Assembly: GCA_030431755.1 (NCBI GenBank)
Contig: JAUIIK010000009.1
Location: 1-63,530 of the forward strand
Length of the DNA: 63,530 nucleotides
Reading direction: 5' to 3'
DNA from: Chloroflexia bacterium
GTDB taxonomy: Bacteria; Chloroflexota; Chloroflexia; Thermomicrobiales; CFX8
The notes beneath the pieces were generated by a model, which had not been told where the DNA came from, ran no database searches, and was given only the letters and a program-made list of their open reading frames with translations. Positions 8,717 through 23,834 of this stretch are shown one piece after another. The stretch's first letter is position 1. Every line of letters begins with the position of its first letter. A program made the position numbers and the translations under genes.

Positions 8717-9643
8717 TCAGTCACTCCGTCGCATGTGATCTCCCAGCACCTGATCGAGGGTGTAGCGTGCGATCCCGGCCAGGCCGAGATTGGTCTCGTG
8801 GTAGTAGGAGAGCGCGCCGGCCGCGAAAGAGAGCGCCACGCCACGACCACGTTCCCAGGTTGCGTCATCTGTCTGCACGGCTGTGCGGAAGACGGCACGG
8901 GCAGCCGGGGTGAAAATCGTCCAGGCCGGGAGGAGATCGATGGCGGGATCTCCAACGCCCATGCATCCGAAGTCGATCACGGCGCTCAGACGACCGCCGG
9001 TTGCCAGCAGGTTGCCGGACTGAAGATCACCGTGAAACCAGGCCGGTGGCCGGTCCCAGACCGGCGCCGCCAGCGCGGAATCCCAGATGGCAGTCGCCGC
9101 CATGATGTCGATCATGCTCATGGTTTCGAGTTTTGCCAGTGCGGAGCGCGTCGACGCGTCGCGTTCGGCAAGCGGGACACCACGGGAGACATTCGGCGAG
9201 CCTGCCAAAGGTCCACCGGTTGCGTCGACTTGTTGAAGAGTGTTGATGAACTCCGCAACGTCGCGCGCATACTGGGCATGGTCGCTGACGCGGTCGAGGG
9301 TCGCGGTTTCGCCCTCAATCCAACGGTTGACCGACCAATGCCAGGGGTAGCCCTCGCCGGGCTCACCGAGCGCCAGTGGAACTGGAATCGGAAGTGGCAA
9401 GTGCGGCGCGAGCTGCGGGAGCCAGCGGTATTCACGTTCGATCTGAGAGATGGCCCAGTCGATGCGCGGCAACCGGACAACCAGCTCGTCGCCGAGCTGG
9501 TAGAGGGCGTTGTCGGTCCCGGCGGAATCGACCCGCTGGAGCGGCAGTTCAGCCCACTCCGGGAACTGCGCCGCGAGGAGCCGCCGGACAAGATCGGCGT
9601 CGATCGGTTGCTCGTTCTCGTGCATCGTTGTGGTGCTAGACAT
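8717..9643 (-). CDS. Aminoglycoside phosphotransferase (APH)-family kinase
   Basis: The 308-residue protein has the APH catalytic loop WFHGDLQSGNLL, with catalytic Asp and Asn, and the metal-binding motif VIDFGCMGVGDPAIDLLPAW. The N-lobe has the expected RLPRIDWAISQIEREYRWL. Such kinases phosphorylate aminoglycosides or macrolides, or act on other small alcohols such as homoserine or fructosamine. The ATG at 9643 overlaps the end of the MFS gene by eight bases, so it is translated from the same transcript as the exporter and the ribosomal-protection GTPase. That context supports a resistance role, but this is inference. Confidence 0.8.
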   Translation of the reverse strand: MSSTTTMHENEQPIDADLVRRLLAAQFPEWAELPLQRVDSAGTDNALYQLGDELVVRLPRIDWAISQIEREYRWLPQLAPHLPLPIPVPLALGEPGEGYPWHWSVNRWIEGETATLDRVSDHAQYARDVAEFINTLQQVDATGGPLAGSPNVSRGVPLAERDASTRSALAKLETMSMIDIMAATAIWDSALAAPVWDRPPAWFHGDLQSGNLLATGGRLSAVIDFGCMGVGDPAIDLLPAWTIFTPAARAVFRTAVQTDDATWERGRGVALSFAAGALSYYHETNLGLAGIARYTLDQVLGDHMRRSD

Positions 9644-10868
9644 GGATTCTCTGTGCTTTCTGTAGTGACGCGTCAGTTTGCGTGAACCGGACGATGAGGC
9701 CGGTAGTGGCGAAGAGCAGGCAGGCGGCTGTGAAGGCGGCGGTGATGGTCGTCGTCTGGGCCAGGATGCCGAAGCTGACGCCGAAGACGATCTCGCCGAA
9801 ATACTCGGCCTGACCCAGGAAGGACTGCATCGTCGCCCTGACTTCGCTGGTGGCGCGGCGGTTGACCCAGATGACGCCAACGGCGCGGGTGACGGTCATG
9901 CCGATCCCGCCGACGATCAGGATACCGGCGCTGCCCGTGACGCCGTCTGGCGCGAAGGCCAGCAGCGCCAGTCCGACGGCGCCGACAGCGCAGGCCAAGG
10001 CGTAGAGACGGCGCGCCGCGCCGACACCTTCGAAGCGGCTCTCGACGACCCGCAAAGCCAGCGCCCCGGTGGCGTATGTGGCGATGCCGAGCGCGGTGAA
10101 CCAGACGACCTCATTATCCCCAGTCGGGATCCACCCCGGGATGCCGAGGTCGATCAGCTTCTTAGGGTGGAGCCGCCCGAAGGCTTCATCGACGCCGTTG
10201 ACCATGATCGTTGCCGCGAAGACCAGCAGGATCTCGCGGTCGCGCCGGGCCAGGGTCAGGCCGCGCCGGAATATCGAGGCTGAACGGCGCCAGTGCTGAT
10301 CGCGGGCCGGGGTGAAGCCGGTCTCCGGGAAGCGGGTTGCCACGTACAGGCCGAGCAGTGTCGTCGCGACCCCGGCGCAGATCATGGCGGTGTCGCGCTC
10401 GGTTAGCCAGGCCAGGGAGCCGACCGCGATCATGCCCGTTGCCGCGCCGATGTAGGACCAGCGCGCCTGCTTCGTCAGCACCCGCCCGATGCGTTCATCG
10501 TCGTTGAGCTCGTCGGTGACCCAGGCGACGTCCGCGCCGCTGGCGAAGGTCCAGCCGACCCCCCAGATCATCTGGGTGATGACCAGCGCCGGGAAGGCTG
10601 TCACCAACCCGGTCGCGACCATGCTGCCGCCGATCAGGAGCTGCGATATGACGAGCGACCACTTGCGGCTGATCGTGTCGGCCACGACGCCGGTCGGCAC
10701 CTCGAAGATGATCGAGATGATGCTCTGGGCGGTTCCGAGGAAGACCAGCTCGAAGGGCGATAGCCCGGCATCGAGCACCAGGTAGATGCTGGTGACGAGC
10801 CAGTAGCCGCGGTGCAGCACGGCCCGCATCCAGGCCCAGCGCAGGTAGGGAACGGTGATGTCCATCAT
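9636..10868 (-). CDS. MFS efflux transporter
   Basis: The 410-residue protein has about 12 hydrophobic segments and a major-facilitator signature between helices 2 and 3 (GVVADTISRKWSLVIS, the G-x3-D-x2-RK pattern). A long charged loop around residues 180-215 separates the two halves. Bacterial MFS proteins of this type often export drugs by proton antiport. It begins 21 bp downstream of the ribosomal-protection gene and overlaps the APH-family gene, making a three-gene operon. The substrate is unknown. Confidence 0.85.
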   Translation of the reverse strand: MMDITVPYLRWAWMRAVLHRGYWLVTSIYLVLDAGLSPFELVFLGTAQSIISIIFEVPTGVVADTISRKWSLVISQLLIGGSMVATGLVTAFPALVITQMIWGVGWTFASGADVAWVTDELNDDERIGRVLTKQARWSYIGAATGMIAVGSLAWLTERDTAMICAGVATTLLGLYVATRFPETGFTPARDQHWRRSASIFRRGLTLARRDREILLVFAATIMVNGVDEAFGRLHPKKLIDLGIPGWIPTGDNEVVWFTALGIATYATGALALRVVESRFEGVGAARRLYALACAVGAVGLALLAFAPDGVTGSAGILIVGGIGMTVTRAVGVIWVNRRATSEVRATMQSFLGQAEYFGEIVFGVSFGILAQTTTITAAFTAACLLFATTGLIVRFTQTDASLQKAQRIHV

Positions 10869-10889: not shown

Positions 10890-12872
10890 CTAGACCCGCC
10901 GCAGGACATGCAGCAGGTACTCCTTGCGGTCGAGCGGGTTGTGATCAGAACGCGGCCGGACCGGGATCTCGCCGCTGATTGGGGCATAGCGGTCGAACTC
11001 CGACTCCAAGACGCCCTCGCCGCGCGTCATGCCGGGCAGGCGCTGCTGTAGCTCCTGCAGGCGCGCGGCCGGGATCTGCCCTTCCAGCAGGCAGGTCTCA
11101 CCACGCAGTCGCGGCGTCTCGGGGCTGGCATCGAGGGTCGCCAGCAGCGGCAGCAGTGGCCCGTAGGTGTCCTCGGGCATCTCGATGTAGAAGCGCAGGA
11201 CAGGCTCGTAGACTGTCGTCCCGGCCTGCTTCAATGCGTCCATCAGCACCAGCGGCGTCAGGTTGCGGAAGTCTCCGGCGGTGCTCGACATGCTCTTGTC
11301 GAAGACGCCATGGGCGCTGCTCTGGCGGGCCCAGTAGCCGGAGTGGGTCATCGTGACGATGCAGTCGGTGACCTCCCAGCCGTGGAGTCCCTGGCGCAGC
11401 GTCGCGTGCACGGCCTCTTCGACGGCGTTGAAGAAGGCCAACGGCATCGACCCCAGCTCGACCTCCAGCCGGAACTCGATACCGATGTCGAGCGGCGCCG
11501 GATCGATCCGCAACCCAAGCGTGGCGAGGAAGGGATTCGGTTCCTGGGCGATGATCTCGAAGGCCGCGCCGCTGCCGGCGGGCCGCTCGACGCAGATGGT
11601 CGTCGATTCGCTGAACTCGACCTCGATACCGAAGTCGTCCGCCAGCGTCTGCTGGATGACCTCTTTCTGGACCTCGCCGTAGAGAGACAGGAGCGTCTCC
11701 TGCCGAACCTCGTCGCGCCGCAGGTTGATGAGCGGATCCTGCTCCTCAAGCTGGGTCAGGGCGACGTGCAGGGTGCCACGATCAGCCGGATTGCGGGGCA
11801 TGATGATCGTCTCAAGCGTTGGCGGAGCGAAGTTCTGCTGACCTTGATCGAGTCGGGCTGCGCCGAGCGCGTCGCCGACCTTGATGTCGTGCAGTCCACG
11901 CAGTTGGCCGATCTGCCCGGCGGAGATTGATTTCTGCGTGACGGACGAGCCCTCGGCAAAGACCTCGATGCCAGTGACGGTGCCTTCACATTCCGCACCG
12001 AACGCGAGCCGCTCGCGCACGTTGAGCCGGCCGGAGAAGACGCGCGCATAAGCGATCTTCTCGTTGGATGCTCCCCGCTCGATCTTGAAGACCGACGCCG
12101 AGAATGGCGCGCCGGGATCGCTGCAACTGGTTGGTAACAGCTCGCGGATGCCGGCGATCAGGTCGTTTGTTCCTGCCCCGGTAATGGCCGACCCGAAGTA
12201 GACCGGCGATATCTGTGACCGCCTGACCTGTTCCTTGAACTTGCCGTCAAGCTGCCGGGAGGCCATCGACTCATCGGCGACGAAGGCCGCCAGGAAGTCC
12301 TCATCATGGTCTGCGAGCAGCTCGATCAGGCTATCGGCAAAAGCATCATCAGATGAGTCGTAGGGTGTGAATCCGGCATCGCGGCTGCCGAGATCATGTG
12401 TTGTGCCCATCGCGATGATCGCCGGGGTCAGTTTCTCGGCGATACCGTCCAGCACGCGCTCGTATGCGGCTCCGGCGCGGTCGATCTTGTTGACAAAGAT
12501 GAGCGTCGGGATGCCGAGCCGCCGCAGCGTCCGCATCAGCACCCGGGTTTGGGACTGGATCCCTTCGACGGCGGAGATGACCAGCACTGCTCCGTCGAGC
12601 ACATGCAGGACGCGTTCGACCTCGGCGATGAAGTCCGGGTGGCCGGGCGTGTCGATCAGGTTGACCGTGGTGTCGCCCAGGGAGAAAGAGACCACGGCCG
12701 ACTTGATCGTGATGCCGCGTTGTCGTTCGAGCGCGAGGGAATCGGTCTGGGTGTTGCCATCGTCGACGCTACCGATCTCGTCGATGACACCGGCGGCGTA
12801 GAGTAGCCGCTCGGTCAGGCTTGTCTTACCGGCGTCGACATGGGCCAGAATTCCGAGGTTCAACGTACGCAT
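10890..12872 (-). CDS. Tet(M)/Otr(A)-type ribosomal protection GTPase (EF-G paralogue)
   Basis: The 660-residue protein is an EF-G-like GTPase of the length seen in Tet(M) and Otr(A). The G motifs are AHVDAGKTSLTE (G1), RGITI (G2), DTPGH (G3) and NKID (G4). The C-terminal part has the STAGDFRNLTPLVL and GTTVYEPVLRF stretches typical of the Tet ribosomal-protection group rather than of EF-G itself. These proteins bind the ribosome and dislodge tetracycline-like drugs. A GAAGGA lies about 12 bases before the ATG. An overlapping 36-codon leader frame precedes it. The MFS and APH-family genes follow at once. Confidence 0.85.
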   Translation of the reverse strand: MRTLNLGILAHVDAGKTSLTERLLYAAGVIDEIGSVDDGNTQTDSLALERQRGITIKSAVVSFSLGDTTVNLIDTPGHPDFIAEVERVLHVLDGAVLVISAVEGIQSQTRVLMRTLRRLGIPTLIFVNKIDRAGAAYERVLDGIAEKLTPAIIAMGTTHDLGSRDAGFTPYDSSDDAFADSLIELLADHDEDFLAAFVADESMASRQLDGKFKEQVRRSQISPVYFGSAITGAGTNDLIAGIRELLPTSCSDPGAPFSASVFKIERGASNEKIAYARVFSGRLNVRERLAFGAECEGTVTGIEVFAEGSSVTQKSISAGQIGQLRGLHDIKVGDALGAARLDQGQQNFAPPTLETIIMPRNPADRGTLHVALTQLEEQDPLINLRRDEVRQETLLSLYGEVQKEVIQQTLADDFGIEVEFSESTTICVERPAGSGAAFEIIAQEPNPFLATLGLRIDPAPLDIGIEFRLEVELGSMPLAFFNAVEEAVHATLRQGLHGWEVTDCIVTMTHSGYWARQSSAHGVFDKSMSSTAGDFRNLTPLVLMDALKQAGTTVYEPVLRFYIEMPEDTYGPLLPLLATLDASPETPRLRGETCLLEGQIPAARLQELQQRLPGMTRGEGVLESEFDRYAPISGEIPVRPRSDHNPLDRKEYLLHVLRRV

Positions 12873-14900: not shown

Positions 14901-17885
14901 TCAGGGGGCGGTGACGGTCAAGGGCTGCATGTCGAGCTGGGTCGAGAGGGTGTCCTCGGACTCTGGCTGGCGGAAGATCAGGCGCGTCGTCCATGTGCCG
15001 GGCGCGCTGATGCTGAAGGTGTTGGCATAGACGCCGTGGCCGACCGCCGGCAGGTCGCGGATGAGCGAACCCGAGCCGACCAGGGCCAGGCGCAGCTCGT
15101 CCGGCAGGCCGTCTACCAACGTGACGCCCTCCGGCAGCGGGTCGCCGGTCGCCGCGTCGACGAAGAGGGCGCGGACCATGATCTCGGCCTCCGCAACCGG
15201 CTCCTGCGGGTCGCTCTCCAGACGCAGGACATAGGGGCGGCCGTCCGTGCCTTCGAACGTCGGCGTACCGCGGAAGACATCGCGCAGAATCAGGGTAAAG
15301 CCACCGCCCTCGCCACCTTCGCCGACGACAATGCGCGCGTTCCACCAACCCGCTTCCTTCAGCTTCACCGTGCCGCGCTGCTCGCCGGGCGCGAGCTCTG
15401 CGCCAACCGAGACGACCGACTTCGCGCCGGGTCGTTCGAAAGCGAGCGTGACCTGCTGTTCGGCGTCGTAGCGAACAAATGGAGCGTCGCTGCCAAGCGG
15501 TTCGCCGGTGGCCGGGTCGAGGAATTCGAGCTCGACCGGGACGGTGATGCCGACCGGGAGCTGCTCGTCGAGCACCCTGACACGCGCTTGCGGCAGGGTC
15601 GTGAAGTCGTCGATGTCATCGGGTGCGACACCGTCGACTGTCGGCGCGCGGCCGTAGATGGCACGGTATTCCCCGGCTGGCGAGATCAGAGTGAGATTGG
15701 CGTTCTGCTCGGTCAACTCAGCCAACTCCACCATGCCCGTTTGCTCGAATGTCGCCGTGTCGAAGGTCGAGATGACGAAGCGCCAGCGTTGTGGATCTTC
15801 TCGGTTGCTGACCTGGCTGAGCGTGTGGACGCTGGCGCTATCCGGCGCGACGGTGACGTCACGGATGTCGCCCGGTACCTCGATGCGCTGGACGACCCGC
15901 CAGCCTGCGAGATCTACCACCCACAGGGGCCGCGTGGCTGGCGGCGGCGAGCTCGGCGTGCGTAGCCAGTCGTCCGGGATGTACTCGGTCAGGAAGAGGA
16001 AGCGGCCGTCCGGCGATAGCTGAGCGTCCTCCACCGGTATTGGGCTATCCCTGAAGCCGTTGAGGTCGAGCGCGAAGGTCCGTTCGATGGCGCGCCGGGC
16101 CAGATCGACGATGGCGACCTCGCCCGAGCTGCTCGAGTAGAGATAGAGTCGCTGGCCGTCGTTCGAGGTCAGAGCCGAAACGCGACTCGTGGCTGGATCC
16201 GTGTTCGGGCCGGTGCTGAAGGCTGTCGTGAGCTCCTGAATCTCGCCGCTCTCGATGTCGAAGAAATCGACGCGCATCTGCCGGCCGTCGTCATGGGTGA
16301 TGTATAGCCCCGAGTTGTCCGGCAGGACGCGTGCACGCCCGATCGGGAAGTCTGGTTGCGCCCAATCGAACTCGGACTCGGTCGACGCGACAACCGCGCC
16401 GGTGTTGAGGAAGGTTGGCGAGAGGTCGTCGCGGTCGATGCGATAGAGCCAGCGCGTCCAGCGGTCGCGGATCTCCGGACCTTGCTGGGCGAGCGTGACA
16501 TAGGCGTAGAGCTCAGTTGCCGCGGCGTCCGGCAGCACGAAGAAGCCGACTTCGACATACCAACTGCCTTCGGGCAGCGGAATCCAGCCGGCGCGCAGCT
16601 CCGCGCCGAGGCGCGGCACTTCAATCGTTTTGCGCGCGACGGTCTCGCCGGTCGCGAGGTCGAGCGCTGTGATGGTGGCCGGTTCCGGGGCGCTGGCGAT
16701 GATGTAGAGCCGGTCGCCGGCGATGGCGGCATCCCAGGATGTGGGGAAGCCGGTGTAGGGGATGACGTACTCCCAGTCCTGGAGCACGCCGTCGTGGGCC
16801 ACCGTGAGCACCGGTACCTGCGGCGGCGCGTTCATATCGGTGTTGCTGATGCCCTCGTCCCTGCGCCATTCGAGCAAGAGAACCCAGCGGCCGTCGGGCG
16901 AGATGTGTTGGATCTGGTTCGCAGCGGAGTCCAGCGCCACAACGGACTCGGTTTGTGGAGTGTAAGAGAACCACCGGTAACCGTCTGCGCCGCGCAGCGT
17001 CTCATCGAGCAGGCTTGCCTGAATGAGCAGATCGCTGTCGAGTTCGGTGCCGATGACGCGGACGCTGGCCGGCGTGCGGGCCGGAGTCGGGGTTGGTTCA
17101 GCGGCGTTGACGACAGCCGGGCTGGCGGGAATGGCAGGTGTTGTCGCCGTTGCGCTGGCAAGGCCCTCAGGCCGCACGAAGCTCGCCGGTTCCTCGTTGC
17201 CGCTCCCGAACGGGATGCCGCCGAGGAGCCAGATGGCGGATATCAGCGCCAGAACCAGGAACCCGGCCAGCACGGCGATGACGGTCCGCCGCGTCCGGCG
17301 TCGCTCGGCGGCCGCGTGCTCCTCGACCGCCGGGGCGAGCTCTGGCCACAGGTCGCCGCGTGGCGCGCCGGTCGCGAGCCAGGCCAGGAGTCGCTGAGGC
17401 GGTTCGCCGGCTAGCCGCTGGGCCGCGTCGACGAGCCGTTCCCGGGACCAGGCGAGCATCTCATCGAGCTCGTCCGGTTCGATGCTGGTAACCGCGATGA
17501 CGTCCTTCGGCGCAAGCCCGCCGAGATCGCGCAGGACCAACGCGGCCCGCATCTGGCGGTTGAGCAGCTCCAGCGCCTCGCGCAATCGCTCTGCTTCGTC
17601 GTCTTCGGGTTTGGGCGCGCGTTCGCCGGCATCGGTCCTGGCCATGTAGCGCCGCCCGAGGGCGGTGACGAGCAGCGTCCAGGAGTTCGGGTCGAACTCA
17701 ACATCGCGCGTCGTTGTCAGCACATCGAACAGCGCGCCGCTACTTAGCGCTCGCGCGCGGGCGGCGCTGCCGGTCAGGGTGAAGGCCAGGCGCAGGAGGT
17801 CACGTTGGTAGGTCTCGACGAACTCGCGTGGCTTGACGCGGCTGGCGTCTACCTGACTGAAACCGGCAAGCTCCGCGCGGCTCAT
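14901..17885 (-). CDS. Membrane-anchored sigma-like / beta-propeller / Ig-like protein, copy A
   Basis: This 994-residue protein has a sigma-70-like cytoplasmic part: a region-2-like helix pair at about residues 20-60 (ETYQRDLLRLAFTLTGS) and a region-4-like part at about 100-155 (LLNRQMRAALVLRDLGGL, then SIEPDELDEMLAWSRERL). A juxtamembrane GDLWPELAP motif (about 178-186) precedes one membrane helix (201-222). Outside follow a linker, repeated propeller blades (SPDGRWVLLLEW, SPDGRFLFLTEYI, DSASVHTL) at about 270-770, and two Ig-like domains to the end. Its ATG overlaps the stop of copy B by four bases. Role unknown; extracytoplasmic sensing tied to transcription is inference. Confidence 0.8.
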   Translation of the reverse strand: MSRAELAGFSQVDASRVKPREFVETYQRDLLRLAFTLTGSAARARALSSGALFDVLTTTRDVEFDPNSWTLLVTALGRRYMARTDAGERAPKPEDDEAERLREALELLNRQMRAALVLRDLGGLAPKDVIAVTSIEPDELDEMLAWSRERLVDAAQRLAGEPPQRLLAWLATGAPRGDLWPELAPAVEEHAAAERRRTRRTVIAVLAGFLVLALISAIWLLGGIPFGSGNEEPASFVRPEGLASATATTPAIPASPAVVNAAEPTPTPARTPASVRVIGTELDSDLLIQASLLDETLRGADGYRWFSYTPQTESVVALDSAANQIQHISPDGRWVLLLEWRRDEGISNTDMNAPPQVPVLTVAHDGVLQDWEYVIPYTGFPTSWDAAIAGDRLYIIASAPEPATITALDLATGETVARKTIEVPRLGAELRAGWIPLPEGSWYVEVGFFVLPDAAATELYAYVTLAQQGPEIRDRWTRWLYRIDRDDLSPTFLNTGAVVASTESEFDWAQPDFPIGRARVLPDNSGLYITHDDGRQMRVDFFDIESGEIQELTTAFSTGPNTDPATSRVSALTSNDGQRLYLYSSSSGEVAIVDLARRAIERTFALDLNGFRDSPIPVEDAQLSPDGRFLFLTEYIPDDWLRTPSSPPPATRPLWVVDLAGWRVVQRIEVPGDIRDVTVAPDSASVHTLSQVSNREDPQRWRFVISTFDTATFEQTGMVELAELTEQNANLTLISPAGEYRAIYGRAPTVDGVAPDDIDDFTTLPQARVRVLDEQLPVGITVPVELEFLDPATGEPLGSDAPFVRYDAEQQVTLAFERPGAKSVVSVGAELAPGEQRGTVKLKEAGWWNARIVVGEGGEGGGFTLILRDVFRGTPTFEGTDGRPYVLRLESDPQEPVAEAEIMVRALFVDAATGDPLPEGVTLVDGLPDELRLALVGSGSLIRDLPAVGHGVYANTFSISAPGTWTTRLIFRQPESEDTLSTQLDMQPLTVTAP

Positions 17886-20812
17886 TGGCTCGCCGGATTA
17901 CCCATGCGGCTGCCGCCGGTAGTTGCCGAGGCGCCTTCGAACGGCTCGGTGAGATCGCTGATCTGGAAGCTGCCGGCATTGACCGTGATGCGCTCACCGT
18001 TGCCCAGCCCGAGAACGATGGTCGCCGTCCACTCGCCGGCCGCGCCGAAGCGCGCCCAGCCCAGGAAGGAGTCATGGTCGATGCGCGACAGGTCCTCGAC
18101 GACACGCTCGCCGCTGGGATGGGTCAGGACGATCTGGACATCTTCGGAGATGAGGTCGAGAAATTCGATCTCTTCCGGCAGACGCTCGCGTTCGTCCGAT
18201 GCCACCATCCAGACACGCAGCGTGACCGTCCGCCGGTTGACCGGGTTGGCCGGCCGGACGACGAAGCGGTATGCGCCGCCGGTCGCCGCGACAAAGCCCT
18301 CCGAGACTTCGATGGCGTCGGCTTGCTCGGCGGTCCAGCTCGTGCCGTCGCTATTGATGATCGTTGCCCGTGCATCCCAGCTACCCGCGCCGTCCATCCG
18401 CACCTGGCCGGCATAGACGCCGGTCTCGACGCTCGATGGCACGAGGATGGCCTGCTCCTCGCCGTTCGTGAGCTCGACGATGAGCGTGGCGTTGCGGTCG
18501 AAGCGCAGCGTGCGGTCGGATACGGCCGGCGCGCCGGTGAGCGGATGGACTAGCCGGGCGGTAACTGTCGTCTCCGCGCCGGCAACCACGTCATCGGCCT
18601 CGACGCTGATGCCCGGCAGCACGGCAAGGATCGAGTTGTCGACCGGCGCAACCGGTCCCGTGCCCGGCCGGAAGCCGTACTGCTCGTGATAGCTCTGCTC
18701 GACCGAGCCGATGCGCTGGATATCGGCCCAGTCTGGCGCGGGCAGCGTATCGCGGACCTCGAGCGGCTCGCCGGATGCGGTGTCGAAGGTCGTCAACCGA
18801 ACCTGGCCGTCGGCGCGGCTGGAGCGGAGGTAGATCTGCCGGCCGTCGCCGCTCATCGTCATCCGGCGCGGCAGGCCGGAGACCACCCAGCGCTCATCGA
18901 CCTGCCAGGTGGTGGTGTTGACAACCCAGACCGGCGACCGCGCCGGGTAGCTGTTGAGCGCCTGGTTCTTCTCCCGGTTGACCGCAAGGTAGAGGCGCGT
19001 GCCGTCCGGGGAAAGCAGCGCTTCAAGATAGGAGACGTGGTTCAGATTGCGCTCGAAGAGCGATGCTTCCTCGGGGCGCGGTGTTATCGGGAAGACGCCG
19101 CTCACCCTGCGCCGGTTGAGGTCGACGATCGCGACCTGCCGCTGGCGTGTCTGGATGACGTAGAGCGTCTTGCCGGTGTTGGAGGGCACAAGGTGGAGCT
19201 CGTTTTCGCCACGCTGGTCGGCCAGCGGAACGACCCGCGCCGGTATGCCGAGCAGCTGGCTGCTAATCGCGCCGGTCGGGAGGTCGAGAAAGCGCAGGAC
19301 TGCCTGGCCCGAGCGGCGGTCCTGGACGACGCTGTAGACGGCGTCCTCAGCGGGGATCGGCCGGGCGCTGGCGACGCTGAAATCTGTCGGCGTGCCTTCC
19401 TCGGGCGCATCCAGTGGGGTTGCGCGCACCGTACTGGCCGCGCCCGTCGCGGTGTCGAAGGCGACGATGGCCCGCACCCAGGCCGAATTGTCCGGCGACT
19501 TCCATTCGGAGAGCAGATACAGGCGCGCGCCGTCCGTCGATAGTTGTAGCCGGGCCGAGCGCATCCGAGCCGGCACGAAATCATCGCTGCCGAGCGGCCA
19601 GCCGGCACCCGGTTCGCCGCTGTCCAGCGCCAGGGTCTGGATTTGCAGCGCGTCCGGGTTGGCGAGATTCAGCACGTAGACGGTGTCCGGCCCGATGGCG
19701 AGGGCACGCGGGCTGGCGATCTCTGTTTCCCAGGTCGCGCCGCCGTCGAAGCGGCCGGCGGCCAGGAGCGAGCGCCCCGGCGTCGCCCGCAGTTCTCGTT
19801 CCGCGAGCGCCCACGCGCCATCCTGTGAAATCATGACCGGTCCACCGGCGGGCAGGAAATCCGTGGAGGTGTTCGTCGCCGGATCGTAGAGCGCCAACGC
19901 ACTCTGGCTATCGCCGGCTTGCTCGATCAAGCGAAGAAATTGCTGGTCGGGCAGCCGCAGCGCCGGTTCCTCCGGCGCGGTTGTCGCGACCGCGGCGAAG
20001 GAGGCGAGCGCGGGGGTGGGAGTCGGGATCTCCTCGGCGGAGGGCGGCCAGCTCGGCCACTCGCGTGTATCGGCCGAGGCCCTGGTTTCACTCGTGCCCC
20101 TACTGCCCGGCCGGAAGCCGGTCAGCCAGACCGTCGCCGCGCCCAGCATCAAGACAATGGCGGCGATGACCGCGACGGTGAGCAGCCGTTGCGAACGCCG
20201 TCGCGCCGCCCAGGCATCACGTACTTGTTCAGCAAGCTCGACCCAGAGATCGGGTCCGGGCGCTTCGATCAGCACCCGGTTGAGCAGATCGGCGACCGTC
20301 GCATCTGGCGCGCGTCCGGCGGCCTCCGCAACGCGCCCGCGCGCCTGGTCCAGGTTCGTCGTGCCGGCGCGCCGGGTGTCGATCCCGAGCGCCGTGCGCG
20401 CGACTGGTTCGGGCATTCCCGCGACGGCTTCGAGCGCCAGGAGTGCGCGGCTCTGCGGCTCCAGGCGGTCAAGCGCCGCCTTGGTCCGGGAACGCTCGTC
20501 GTCGACGCCATAGCTATTCGCGCCGTCCGTCTCCAGCCAGGTTGAGGGGCCGGGTGCTTGCAGGTAGCGCCTGGCCAGATCGAGCGCCAGCCACTCGCGC
20601 GGTTGGGTCTCGTGCTCAGCGCGGTCAGTGAGCAGCGCTGTGAGCGCCTGGCGTGCCAGTTCGGTTGCCCGCTGGCCGTCGCCGGTCAGGAGATAAGCGA
20701 GGCGCAGCAGCTCCCGCTGGCGGCGCTGGACCAGCGCCTGGGCCGCGTCGAGGTCGCCTGCCCGGCAAGCGGCAAGAAGGGCGAGATCATCCTGGCTGGC
20801 CTGCGGGATCAG
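17882..20812 (-). CDS. Membrane-anchored sigma-like / beta-propeller / Ig-like protein, copy B (start uncertain)
   Basis: The first canonical start, ATG 20416, gives 844 residues beginning MPEPVARTALGID, in the middle of a region-4-like domain. The frame is open for 131 further codons and encodes a full region-2-like part (ELLRLAYLLTGDGQRATELA) that matches copies A and C, so the gene really begins near 20812. No ATG, GTG or TTG is in frame there. An out-of-frame ATG at 20822 has GAGAGG just upstream, and removing one G after it would give MRTLIPQASQDDL in frame. The membrane helix is about residues 79-100 from 20416. Propeller blades (SPDGTRLYLAV, SGDGRQIYL) and Ig-like domains follow. Confidence 0.75.
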   Translation of the reverse strand: MIPQASQDDLALLAACRAGDLDAAQALVQRRQRELLRLAYLLTGDGQRATELARQALTALLTDRAEHETQPREWLALDLARRYLQAPGPSTWLETDGANSYGVDDERSRTKAALDRLEPQSRALLALEAVAGMPEPVARTALGIDTRRAGTTNLDQARGRVAEAAGRAPDATVADLLNRVLIEAPGPDLWVELAEQVRDAWAARRRSQRLLTVAVIAAIVLMLGAATVWLTGFRPGSRGTSETRASADTREWPSWPPSAEEIPTPTPALASFAAVATTAPEEPALRLPDQQFLRLIEQAGDSQSALALYDPATNTSTDFLPAGGPVMISQDGAWALAERELRATPGRSLLAAGRFDGGATWETEIASPRALAIGPDTVYVLNLANPDALQIQTLALDSGEPGAGWPLGSDDFVPARMRSARLQLSTDGARLYLLSEWKSPDNSAWVRAIVAFDTATGAASTVRATPLDAPEEGTPTDFSVASARPIPAEDAVYSVVQDRRSGQAVLRFLDLPTGAISSQLLGIPARVVPLADQRGENELHLVPSNTGKTLYVIQTRQRQVAIVDLNRRRVSGVFPITPRPEEASLFERNLNHVSYLEALLSPDGTRLYLAVNREKNQALNSYPARSPVWVVNTTTWQVDERWVVSGLPRRMTMSGDGRQIYLRSSRADGQVRLTTFDTASGEPLEVRDTLPAPDWADIQRIGSVEQSYHEQYGFRPGTGPVAPVDNSILAVLPGISVEADDVVAGAETTVTARLVHPLTGAPAVSDRTLRFDRNATLIVELTNGEEQAILVPSSVETGVYAGQVRMDGAGSWDARATIINSDGTSWTAEQADAIEVSEGFVAATGGAYRFVVRPANPVNRRTVTLRVWMVASDERERLPEEIEFLDLISEDVQIVLTHPSGERVVEDLSRIDHDSFLGWARFGAAGEWTATIVLGLGNGERITVNAGSFQISDLTEPFEGASATTGGSRMGNPASQ

Positions 20813-20897
20813 GGTGCGCCATCCTCTCAGCAGTCGTCCGTGGAGTTACTCTCAACGATACTCGCTCGGGCGGCAACCCGGAATGCCGTTCCCCTGT

Positions 20898-23834
20898 TTA
20901 CTCGTCGCCCGCGACAACAGTGAGCGTGCCGGCGTCGAAGTTGAAGCGTTCGCCCGCGTCATTCTCCAGCTCGATGACGATCGACCAGTCGCCGGCGCGC
21001 CAGAAGGAGTCCTCGTCGGTGTAGCTGCCGTCGGCTCCGCGTTGCAGGTTGGCGCTGGTGACGCCGACGCCGTTGGAATCGAAGACGACGCGGACGGTAT
21101 CGGGTACGCCGCCGGTAAGCTCAACATTCTCCGGCAGCGGCCGGCCGCTATCGACATCGACGAAATGGGCGCTGATGGCGGCAGGTTGATCAACCTCCGG
21201 CTGTGCCGGCTCAACTTGGACGTCGAGCATGTAGCGCCGGCCATCGCTCGCCTCCCAGGAGGGCACGATCTGGAAGATCTCCTCGATCGTGAATTCCCAG
21301 GCTGCACCGTCCTCCTCGCTGACTGTCACTTCGGCGTTCCAGAAACCAGTCTCCAGCAGAGCCGCGTTGGCGGTGTACCATCCCAGCCCGGTCCGGTTGC
21401 CGATGAGGATGACATCCTCGGCCGCGCCCTCGGCATGGACCAGCCGCAGAATCACCGTCGCGTTCTCGTCGAGCCGGACACTCGGGAGAACTTCGGTCAT
21501 CCGTTGGCCGTCGAACGGATTGAGCAGCCGCACGGCCATGTCGAAAGCCTTCCCGGCCGGGATCGTCTCGCCCGTTGCGACGACCGAGAGACGCGGCAGC
21601 GTGCTCTCTGTTTCAACCGACGCATAGGCGACGTGGTCGACCGCCGGCGCGCGGGCATGATGGAAGCGATAGAACTCGACGAGAGGCGAACTGAAGAAAC
21701 TTTCGGACCACTCAGGAAGGCCCTCGCCAGCGAACTCTGACAGCATCTCTCCGGTCTGAAGGTCGAGAAGCCTGACCCGCCGGTTGGGCGTGCCTGTGTC
21801 CGACTGTTGCACGCTAGTGACGGCCAGCGCATCGCCAAGCTCGGCTGCGCCTAGCACGAAGTCATCGAATCCCTGTGACGCGACGACCGTCCAGCTGCGA
21901 AGATCGACAATCCAAACATGGGACCCTATCTGGAGACCGGACGATGGGCGTCTAATGCCAACAAGATAAAGAATCTCGCCGTCCCGTGAGATGCTCAAAC
22001 CAGCGCCCAGGCCGCTGCCGATTGGAGCCTGGGCACGTAAGACAGTTTGCTGATCTGCCAGCGCCGGCGCGAAGGCGAGCGGGAAGACGCGCTCGACCCG
22101 CCGGGCCAGCAGATCGACGATGGCGACCTCGGCGCGGCTCAACGCGACGATATAGAGGTAGCGGCCATCGTTGGAGACCGTCCACTGGATCGCGTCGTCA
22201 GCTTGCCGCTCCTGGACGAAGGTCACCGACAGGTCGAGATCCTTGCTCGCGTCGGAGCTGCGGAACTGAACCAGCTCCTCACTTTCGTCGACCCGGTAGA
22301 TGAATTCGCCGTCCGGCGTCACACGGGCTTCGGCAAACTGGAACTCGGTCGGAAACTGGCGGCTGGCCGTCGAGTCTGTCTGGACGCTTGATGATTCGAA
22401 GGTCATGTCCGGCAGACTGTAGCTCGCCAGCGTGCGCGACGAGACGAGCGTTGGGCTGGAGCCGAACTCTTCGACGGCGACAAAGAGGCGCTGCTCGTCC
22501 GGGCTGGTGAGGAGCGAGAGCTGAAAGGACTCGCTGACGGCAGTCTGCAGTGCAGGGATCAGATCCTCCCAGGTCTCGACTAGTTCACCAGTTTCAAGAT
22601 CATAGGCGCGTAGTTCCGGGGCCACTGCCTCCTGGGTGGTATCGCCATCTTCCGCGAGCACGGCGACATAGACGCGATTTCCGGCTACGGCGAACGAGTA
22701 GAAGGGGCGCGGCAACTCGATAACCCAGCGCTCCTCGCCGGTTTCAGTCGTGATGGCAACCAGAGGGAGAGGGGCTGTCCGGTTCGACGATTCATCGACG
22801 CGGAAGCTGAAGATAGTCCGGCCATCCGGCGATATGCCACCGATGATTCCAGAAGGAAGCAGCTGGAAAGTATTGGTCGCGGTGTCGAGATATCCAGTTT
22901 CGGTGCGATCCTCGGTACCTTCGGTACCGAAGACACTGAGCACCAGCTTGTCCGGTATATCGCCCTGCGAGATGGCGAAGGATGAGAGCGAGGGAATCGA
23001 CGTCGGCGTGATTGTCGGTGTGGCTGTCGCCGCTGGGGTTGGCGTGGCTGTCGTCGCGAGCGCCGCTGAGCCGTCGTCACTCCCACCGAAGGGCAGCAGG
23101 TCGAAGAGCCAGAGCCCGGCCAGCACCAACAGCACCCCGACGACGCCGGCCGCGATATAGGTCAGCCGCTGCCGGCGGGCATCCTCGCGGGCATAGAAAT
23201 CCTCCAGCGGCTCGACCACCTCCGGCCAGAGGTTCGGGCGCGGCGCGGAAGTTGCGGCGTTGACCAGCAGCTCGCGGACAGCGTAATCCGGACCGACCCC
23301 GGCGGCGTCGCGAATCCGGTCCCGGGCCGGGTGTAGCTGTTGCCGGAGCGTGTAGGGAATCTCGCCGAGAATCCGGCAGACCGGCTCCTCTTCGAGCGCG
23401 TTGAAGTCGCGTAGGACGACGCCGAGGCGCGTTGGCCGGTCGAGCAGATCGAGCAGGGCCAGCACCCGGCTGCGGTCGTCCTCGACCCGGTAGCGGTTCT
23501 CGCCGGCATCGTAGGCGACGGTGCCGGCCAATGAGTCACCGGGGCGGCTGCCGTTGCCGTCGGCCCGGTCTTTCGGATCGACGAGGAAGCTCGCGCCGGT
23601 TGCTTCGAGCAGGCCCATCCGCGGGTCGTCCGGCGCGTCACCCTGGACGAGCCGGCGGAAATAGCTGAGGAATGCGTCGCGGGCGAGCAGTATTGCCCCT
23701 TCAGCTGTGCCGCTTAAGAGGAATGCCGTGCGCACGATCTCATTCTGGTAGACCCGCACAATACGTTCGCTGGCCGGCATGTCGCCCGGCTGGAAGGTCG
23801 CGATCAGGTCTCGGTGGTCGACGATCTGTGCCAA
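20898..23834 (-). CDS. Membrane-anchored sigma-like / beta-propeller / Ig-like protein, copy C
   Basis: This 978-residue protein heads the three-gene run and starts at a TTG with GAGG close upstream. The sigma-like part has YQNEIVRTAFLLSGTAEGA (region 2, about 29-48) and LLDRPTRLGVVLRDF (region 4, about 130-144). The shared juxtamembrane motif is PNLWPEVVEPL (200-210). The membrane helix is about 224-245. A Thr/Pro linker (TATPTPAATATPTITP) follows, then propeller blades (SPDGRTIFSF, TPDGEFIYRVD, SNDGRYLYIV, SRDGEILYLVG), then two Ig-like domains ending FDAGTLTVVAGDE. A promoter may lie in the AT-rich 23863-23882, but I cannot define it. Confidence 0.8.
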   Translation of the reverse strand: MAQIVDHRDLIATFQPGDMPASERIVRVYQNEIVRTAFLLSGTAEGAILLARDAFLSYFRRLVQGDAPDDPRMGLLEATGASFLVDPKDRADGNGSRPGDSLAGTVAYDAGENRYRVEDDRSRVLALLDLLDRPTRLGVVLRDFNALEEEPVCRILGEIPYTLRQQLHPARDRIRDAAGVGPDYAVRELLVNAATSAPRPNLWPEVVEPLEDFYAREDARRQRLTYIAAGVVGVLLVLAGLWLFDLLPFGGSDDGSAALATTATPTPAATATPTITPTSIPSLSSFAISQGDIPDKLVLSVFGTEGTEDRTETGYLDTATNTFQLLPSGIIGGISPDGRTIFSFRVDESSNRTAPLPLVAITTETGEERWVIELPRPFYSFAVAGNRVYVAVLAEDGDTTQEAVAPELRAYDLETGELVETWEDLIPALQTAVSESFQLSLLTSPDEQRLFVAVEEFGSSPTLVSSRTLASYSLPDMTFESSSVQTDSTASRQFPTEFQFAEARVTPDGEFIYRVDESEELVQFRSSDASKDLDLSVTFVQERQADDAIQWTVSNDGRYLYIVALSRAEVAIVDLLARRVERVFPLAFAPALADQQTVLRAQAPIGSGLGAGLSISRDGEILYLVGIRRPSSGLQIGSHVWIVDLRSWTVVASQGFDDFVLGAAELGDALAVTSVQQSDTGTPNRRVRLLDLQTGEMLSEFAGEGLPEWSESFFSSPLVEFYRFHHARAPAVDHVAYASVETESTLPRLSVVATGETIPAGKAFDMAVRLLNPFDGQRMTEVLPSVRLDENATVILRLVHAEGAAEDVILIGNRTGLGWYTANAALLETGFWNAEVTVSEEDGAAWEFTIEEIFQIVPSWEASDGRRYMLDVQVEPAQPEVDQPAAISAHFVDVDSGRPLPENVELTGGVPDTVRVVFDSNGVGVTSANLQRGADGSYTDEDSFWRAGDWSIVIELENDAGERFNFDAGTLTVVAGDE

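Follow-up and report, generated by a model that had tools for sequence, protein, structure and literature searches.

The window analysed here, a stretch of 63,530 nucleotides corresponding to contig G000:C158 of a 5.1-Mb genome in 272 contigs, encodes three paralogous single-pass transmembrane proteins whose N-terminal domain derives from an ECF sigma factor and very probably no longer works as one. Together with their relatives, these proteins may well form a lineage-restricted family of pseudo-sigma receptors, in which the sigma fold serves as a binding module, e.g. for an anti-sigma factor, or for docking at the membrane; in this functional reading our confidence is about evenly divided.

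The three open reading frames, g3, g2 and g1, follow one another in the same orientation on the minus strand between positions 14901 and 23834 (Table 1), in agreement with the preliminary description of three large tandem genes with a common domain order. Protein g3 shares 26–29% sequence identity with g1 and g2. The start codon of g1 overlaps the stop codon of g2 as ATGA. In g2, no ATG, GTG or TTG start covers the sigma part, and none of these codons occurs in frame before position 20416. This sigma part is taken as real because the open frame extends upstream as far as about 20846, the GC3 upstream of the ATG at 20416 is of the coding type (0.80) and the similarity to the paralogues is clear in the same region. 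From the sequence, translation of g2 probably starts at CTG 20812 or ATC 20809, behind AGAGGA; a single-base error of the assembly close to this start is possible. A mechanically called reading frame from ATG 20416 removes sigma region 2, and automatic gene calling would hide it. Decay into pseudogenes was ruled out by the open frames in all copies and their even divergence.

Table 1 Features of the pseudo-sigma gene array in the window
Feature	Positions	Strand	Description and basis
g3	20898–23834	minus	978 aa, leading gene of the array; open frame, TTG start behind GAGG
g3 pseudo-sigma domain, residues 1–180	23295–23834	minus	Sigma2 and sigma4 fold; profile, AlphaFold model, Foldseek
g3 residues 196–243	23106–23249	minus	P-x3-L-W segment (198–203) and single TM helix (about 222–243); alignment
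g3 extracellular beta-propeller, residues about 296–717	21684–22949	minus	SPDG-type repeats; model, Foldseek
g3 first Ig-like domain (FixH/YtkA-like), residues about 745–857	21264–21602	minus	Beta-sandwich in model
g3 second Ig-like domain, residues about 860–974	20913–21257	minus	Model
g2	17882 to about 20812	minus	Second gene; open frame and paralogue similarity
g2 pseudo-sigma part	about 20330–20812	minus	
g1	14901–17885	minus	Third gene, 994 aa; ATG start
g1 pseudo-sigma part	about 17406–17885	minus	

All three proteins begin with a sigma2–sigma4 domain of 160–180 residues, followed by a juxtamembrane P-x3-L-W motif and one transmembrane (TM) helix that is flanked N-terminally by basic residues; a Thr/Pro-rich linker then leads to a propeller and a pair of Ig-like domains. 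The single TM helix described previously is present in each copy, and residues 203–243 of the g3 model form one continuous helix. The juxtamembrane motif had been given as xLWxE; its leucine and tryptophan are invariant in the alignment of all seven available copies, the glutamate is not, and the equally invariant proline makes P-x3-L-W the better form. The external propeller with Ig-like ends was borne out by the ectodomain model (twelve sequences, pLDDT 77), for which Foldseek returned as top match an archaeal surface protein with a YVTN propeller and a PKD domain (PDB: 1l0q). The g3 propeller gave weak Pfam matches to PQQ_2 and Lactonase. Its first Ig-like domain matched FixH just above the Pfam cut-off (3.8e-5), and those of the other copies gave weak YtkA/FixH matches. 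A metal as ligand of the ectodomain would be a guess from this signature alone.

The descent of the N-terminal domain from an ECF sigma factor appears secure, as judged from sequence profiles and structural models. Single copies from the window matched the NCBIfam model of ECF (SigE-family) sigma factors at about 1e-5, and the paralogue C225-A, encoded elsewhere in the source genome, at 1e-11; C225-A also exceeds the Pfam cut-off for Sigma70_r4_2. A profile of the seven N-termini matched SigE from Mycobacterium tuberculosis (PDB) at 2.5e-14 across regions 2 and 4; all but one of the 31 matches to this profile were sigma factors or PhyR-type sigma-like domains. A template-free AlphaFold model of the g3 N-terminus, built from the seven sequences (pLDDT 83.7, pTM 0.77), retrieved ECF sigma factors and PhyR in Foldseek. 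It was nearest to closed, anti-sigma-bound sigma factors (SigW–RsiW, TM-score 0.75 by target length), versus scores of 0.3–0.4 against RNA polymerase-bound ones. Chance or compositional likeness is ruled out by these profile and fold matches, and the proposed region 2-like and region 4-like parts thus withstood both a profile search and a fold prediction. By homology and fold over both regions, the domain is ECF by descent.

The residues with which an ECF factor contacts polymerase and promoter, in contrast, are eroded. The seven copies were compared with 67 ECF sequences from the source genome and its relatives, a few of which represent one gene fetched twice; numbering follows E. coli RpoE, whose reference sequence was checked for length and named residues only. 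In region 2.2, Q51, which contacts the beta' clamp, is absent from all copies (60/67 ECF sequences have it), and an acidic residue is found at position 52 in one copy (54/67) and at position 48 in three (66/67). W73 is kept in two copies (66/67), N80 of the −10 contacts in none (54/67), and a basic residue at position 87, a −10 contact that is arginine in ECF factors, in one. Among the −35 contacts, K/R171 persists in a single copy (57/67), while R173 (48/67) and R176 (47/67) are missing throughout. The net charge of the recognition helix (165–177) is zero or below in every copy and at least +1 in every ECF sequence. Comparison with 26 ECF factors encoded in the source genome and a HMMER alignment to M. 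tuberculosis SigE gave a matching result. The domains thus lack both the clamp and the promoter contacts of functional ECF factors. Replacements at the lost positions vary from copy to copy, as expected once constraint is lost; owing to their common ancestry, the seven copies do not represent seven independent losses. The fold-bearing positions are retained. At the end of sigma4, positions 178 and 180 are arginine in all seven copies. R178 of RpoE coevolves with anti-sigma factors (PMC7406223), and the two arginines may be what remains of an anti-sigma interface, which is suggestive, no more; in sigma2, a number of positions in contact with anti-sigma factors, including 47 and 51, are not retained.

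The mean identity between copies is 29% in the sigma part and 23–27% in the ectodomain. The sigma part therefore diverges no faster than the rest of the protein and appears to be still constrained, and we consider a constrained binding module a rather probable description of it. Of the two options left by the preliminary description, a re-use of the sigma fold for signalling is hence the better supported one, with the fold kept and the contact residues gone. The receptor reading is favoured because of this constraint and by analogy with PhyR, the alphaproteobacterial sigma mimic and anti-anti-sigma factor, whose sigma-like domain has degenerate polymerase and promoter contacts (PMC8103513). 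PhyR shares the ECF-derived sigma2–sigma4 fold and represents the nearest functional precedent. It is, however, a soluble protein gated by a phosphorylated receiver domain, and no receiver domain was found in any pseudo-sigma copy; here the gate would be the propeller/Ig part on the other side of the membrane. Another difference is that no NepR-like partner is known for the pseudo-sigma receptors. The ectodomain would sense a ligand or a surface state, and the pseudo-sigma domain would relay the signal by binding a protein that normally recognizes a sigma factor. The most plausible type of partner would be an anti-sigma factor, as a membrane-bound counterpart of the mimicry by PhyR, an assignment drawn by analogy that we put forward tentatively; alternatively, the domain would provide a docking site on the membrane. 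In a bolder scheme, which we consider possible though unlikely, the extracellular propeller/Ig part would act as the sensor and itself control a sigma decoy to which anti-sigma factors are recruited at the membrane, i.e. partner switching within a single protein and without a phosphorelay, the paralogues sensing different ligands.

Against the receptor reading stand the lack of an adjoining anti-sigma or ECF gene at the loci examined, the loss of several sigma2 positions for anti-sigma contact, and the existence, in five genomes, of homologues whose ectodomain sits on a signal anchor alone, so that other lineages can dispense with the sigma part. Together with the existence of secreted Ig–propeller relatives and the loss of the sigma contact residues, these sigma-less homologues would also fit a vestigial sigma domain that merely anchors or stabilizes the protein in the cytoplasm, all function residing in the propeller and Ig-like domains (adhesion, binding or envelope structure). 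We regard such a vestige as unlikely, though still a serious competitor, since the whole sigma2–sigma4 domain has been kept in all seven available copies from two genera, evolves no faster than the ectodomain and ends in two invariant arginines, and the P-x3-L-W motif that follows it is likewise invariant.

Membrane-tethered, working ECF factors are known. In ECF52/ECF53, ECF48 (e.g. SCO4117) and IutY (ECF243), an ECF domain is fused via TM segments to an extracytoplasmic part (PMC8999054). Proteolytic release of the tethered sigma factor has been demonstrated for IutY and suggested for ECF52/ECF53. The pseudo-sigma proteins resemble ECF52/ECF53 and IutY in overall architecture, and C225-A still exceeds the Pfam cut-off for region 4. 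They could accordingly be imagined to release their N-terminal domain by proteolysis upon an outside signal, the freed domain then joining RNA polymerase, as the preliminary description had envisaged. This is improbable given the erosion of the clamp, −10 and −35 residues in every copy and a recognition helix devoid of positive charge. In the known fusions the sigma part is regarded as functional, as shown for IutY, and mostly accompanied by a zinc-finger anti-sigma segment; the pseudo-sigma proteins share TM helix and sensor with ECF52/ECF53 and have lost the sigma contacts. Between sigma4 and the TM helix, neither a zinc-finger Pfam match nor a Cys/His cluster was found. Restoration of the clamp contact by phosphorylation, as in EcfP/ECF43, where Ser/Thr residues replace the DAED motif (PMC8103513), would account for the loss of the acidic motif and is nonetheless highly improbable, as the four motif positions in g3, g1 and G002a (GAIL, RARA and AAIA) are without Ser/Thr and the −10 and −35 contacts have also disappeared.

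Fusions of ECF factors to propeller-type repeats had been named in the preliminary description for planctomycetes, and correspond to ECF57 with its WD40-like C-terminal extensions (PMC8999054). Compared by description, ECF57 shares with the pseudo-sigma receptors the joining of an ECF domain to such repeats and differs by its intact sigma parts and by extensions for protein–protein contacts in place of the TM helix, outer propeller and Ig-like ends seen here. The literature searched, which covered sources other than the 2021 ECF reclassification, contained no account of a transmembrane protein whose sigma domain is degenerate. Membrane-fused ECF factors and the soluble mimic PhyR being known already, a membrane receptor with an eroded sigma domain would join both and, if our reading holds, mean that a sigma factor was turned into a signalling module for a second time, independently of PhyR. 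For annotation, contact residues of proteins composed of a sigma-70 domain, a TM helix and a sensor should be checked before these are called transcription factors.

The source genome contains a second array with the complete C225-A and with C225-B, which is cut by a contig end. A further sequence, C66, comprises only the C-terminal part and is possibly the remainder of C225-B, and the total amounts to five or six copies. A metagenome-assembled genome of the same taxonomic family (G002; JACCZH010000318.1, Chloroflexia bacterium isolate MGR_bin225) encodes two single copies that are not in tandem. A search for the architecture, as proposed in the preliminary description, located the fusion of sigma part, TM helix and ectodomain in these two genomes and in none of 156 others of the class (E ≤ 1e-12). 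In a phylum sample of 400, full-length ectodomain matches were confined to genomes of this order, and two further genomes had a partial propeller match. Of the five genomes with sigma-less homologues on a signal anchor, four belong to another family of the order and the fifth is G004; there (L053 2597–6816), the gene overlaps the next one downstream, which codes for a lipoprotein combining propeller repeats and a NosD-like beta-helix. No gene neighbourhood was common to the loci examined, no anti-sigma or ECF gene was found adjoining any copy examined, and a defence system was discarded as PADLOC returned no match.

The seven pseudo-sigma domains formed one clade (support 0.997), which suggests that the conversion from sigma to pseudo-sigma probably happened once, before the split of the two genera. 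C225-A and one G002 copy (L046) have in common a shorter ectodomain in which the second Ig domain is absent. The two are closest to each other in the ectodomain (propeller 33%), which does not hold for the sigma part (27%), a pattern suggestive of shuffled domains or of gene conversion among paralogues.

The source genome also encodes two-gene systems of related design. At locus L116 (2–3929), a true ECF gene is directly followed by the gene for a membrane protein of 1162 aa with two extracellular propellers, the second of which is homologous to the pseudo-sigma family (1e-26); this is likely a pair of an ECF factor and a propeller-bearing anti-sigma factor. The ECF gene is probably split over two contig ends, that of L116 and the end of G000:C259. 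Further pairs of ECF factor and membrane partner were found in the source genome (L113 with, L114 without a propeller), and in a comparable pair of G002 (L131) NHL repeats are present. The propeller pairs L116 and L113 combine a sigma protein, a TM helix and an extracellular propeller, as the pseudo-sigma receptors do, but comprise separate genes and an intact ECF factor. An origin of the family by fusion of such a pair would be attractive. A sister grouping of pseudo-sigma domains and propeller-paired ECF factors was not seen in the tree, and the idea that the juxtamembrane segment is a fused anti-sigma domain was rejected, as hhalign detected no relation to the N-termini of five ECF-adjacent membrane partners.

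A different fusion is encoded in genome G077 (L049 518–1909), with an intact sigma region 4, a TM helix and an extracellular DUF4232 domain. Four loci (L121, L122, L125 and L126) encode secreted proteins of 558–584 aa with the reverse order, an Ig-like domain followed by a propeller. In each case a conserved gene lies 3' of them, whose product begins with MTKxxRVxAAxRGExVDRxPVCFWHHF and which we take to be uroporphyrinogen-decarboxylase-like. Elsewhere in the window, the minus strand encodes a ribosomal-protection-type GTPase (10890–12872), which adjoins an MFS transporter (9636–10868). Its best NCBIfam model is Otr(A) (4e-222; 739 bits, below the 900-bit cut-off), and it reaches 727 of the 775 bits of the general tet_protect model; as judged from these scores, it is a chromosomal relative of the tetracycline ribosomal protection proteins.
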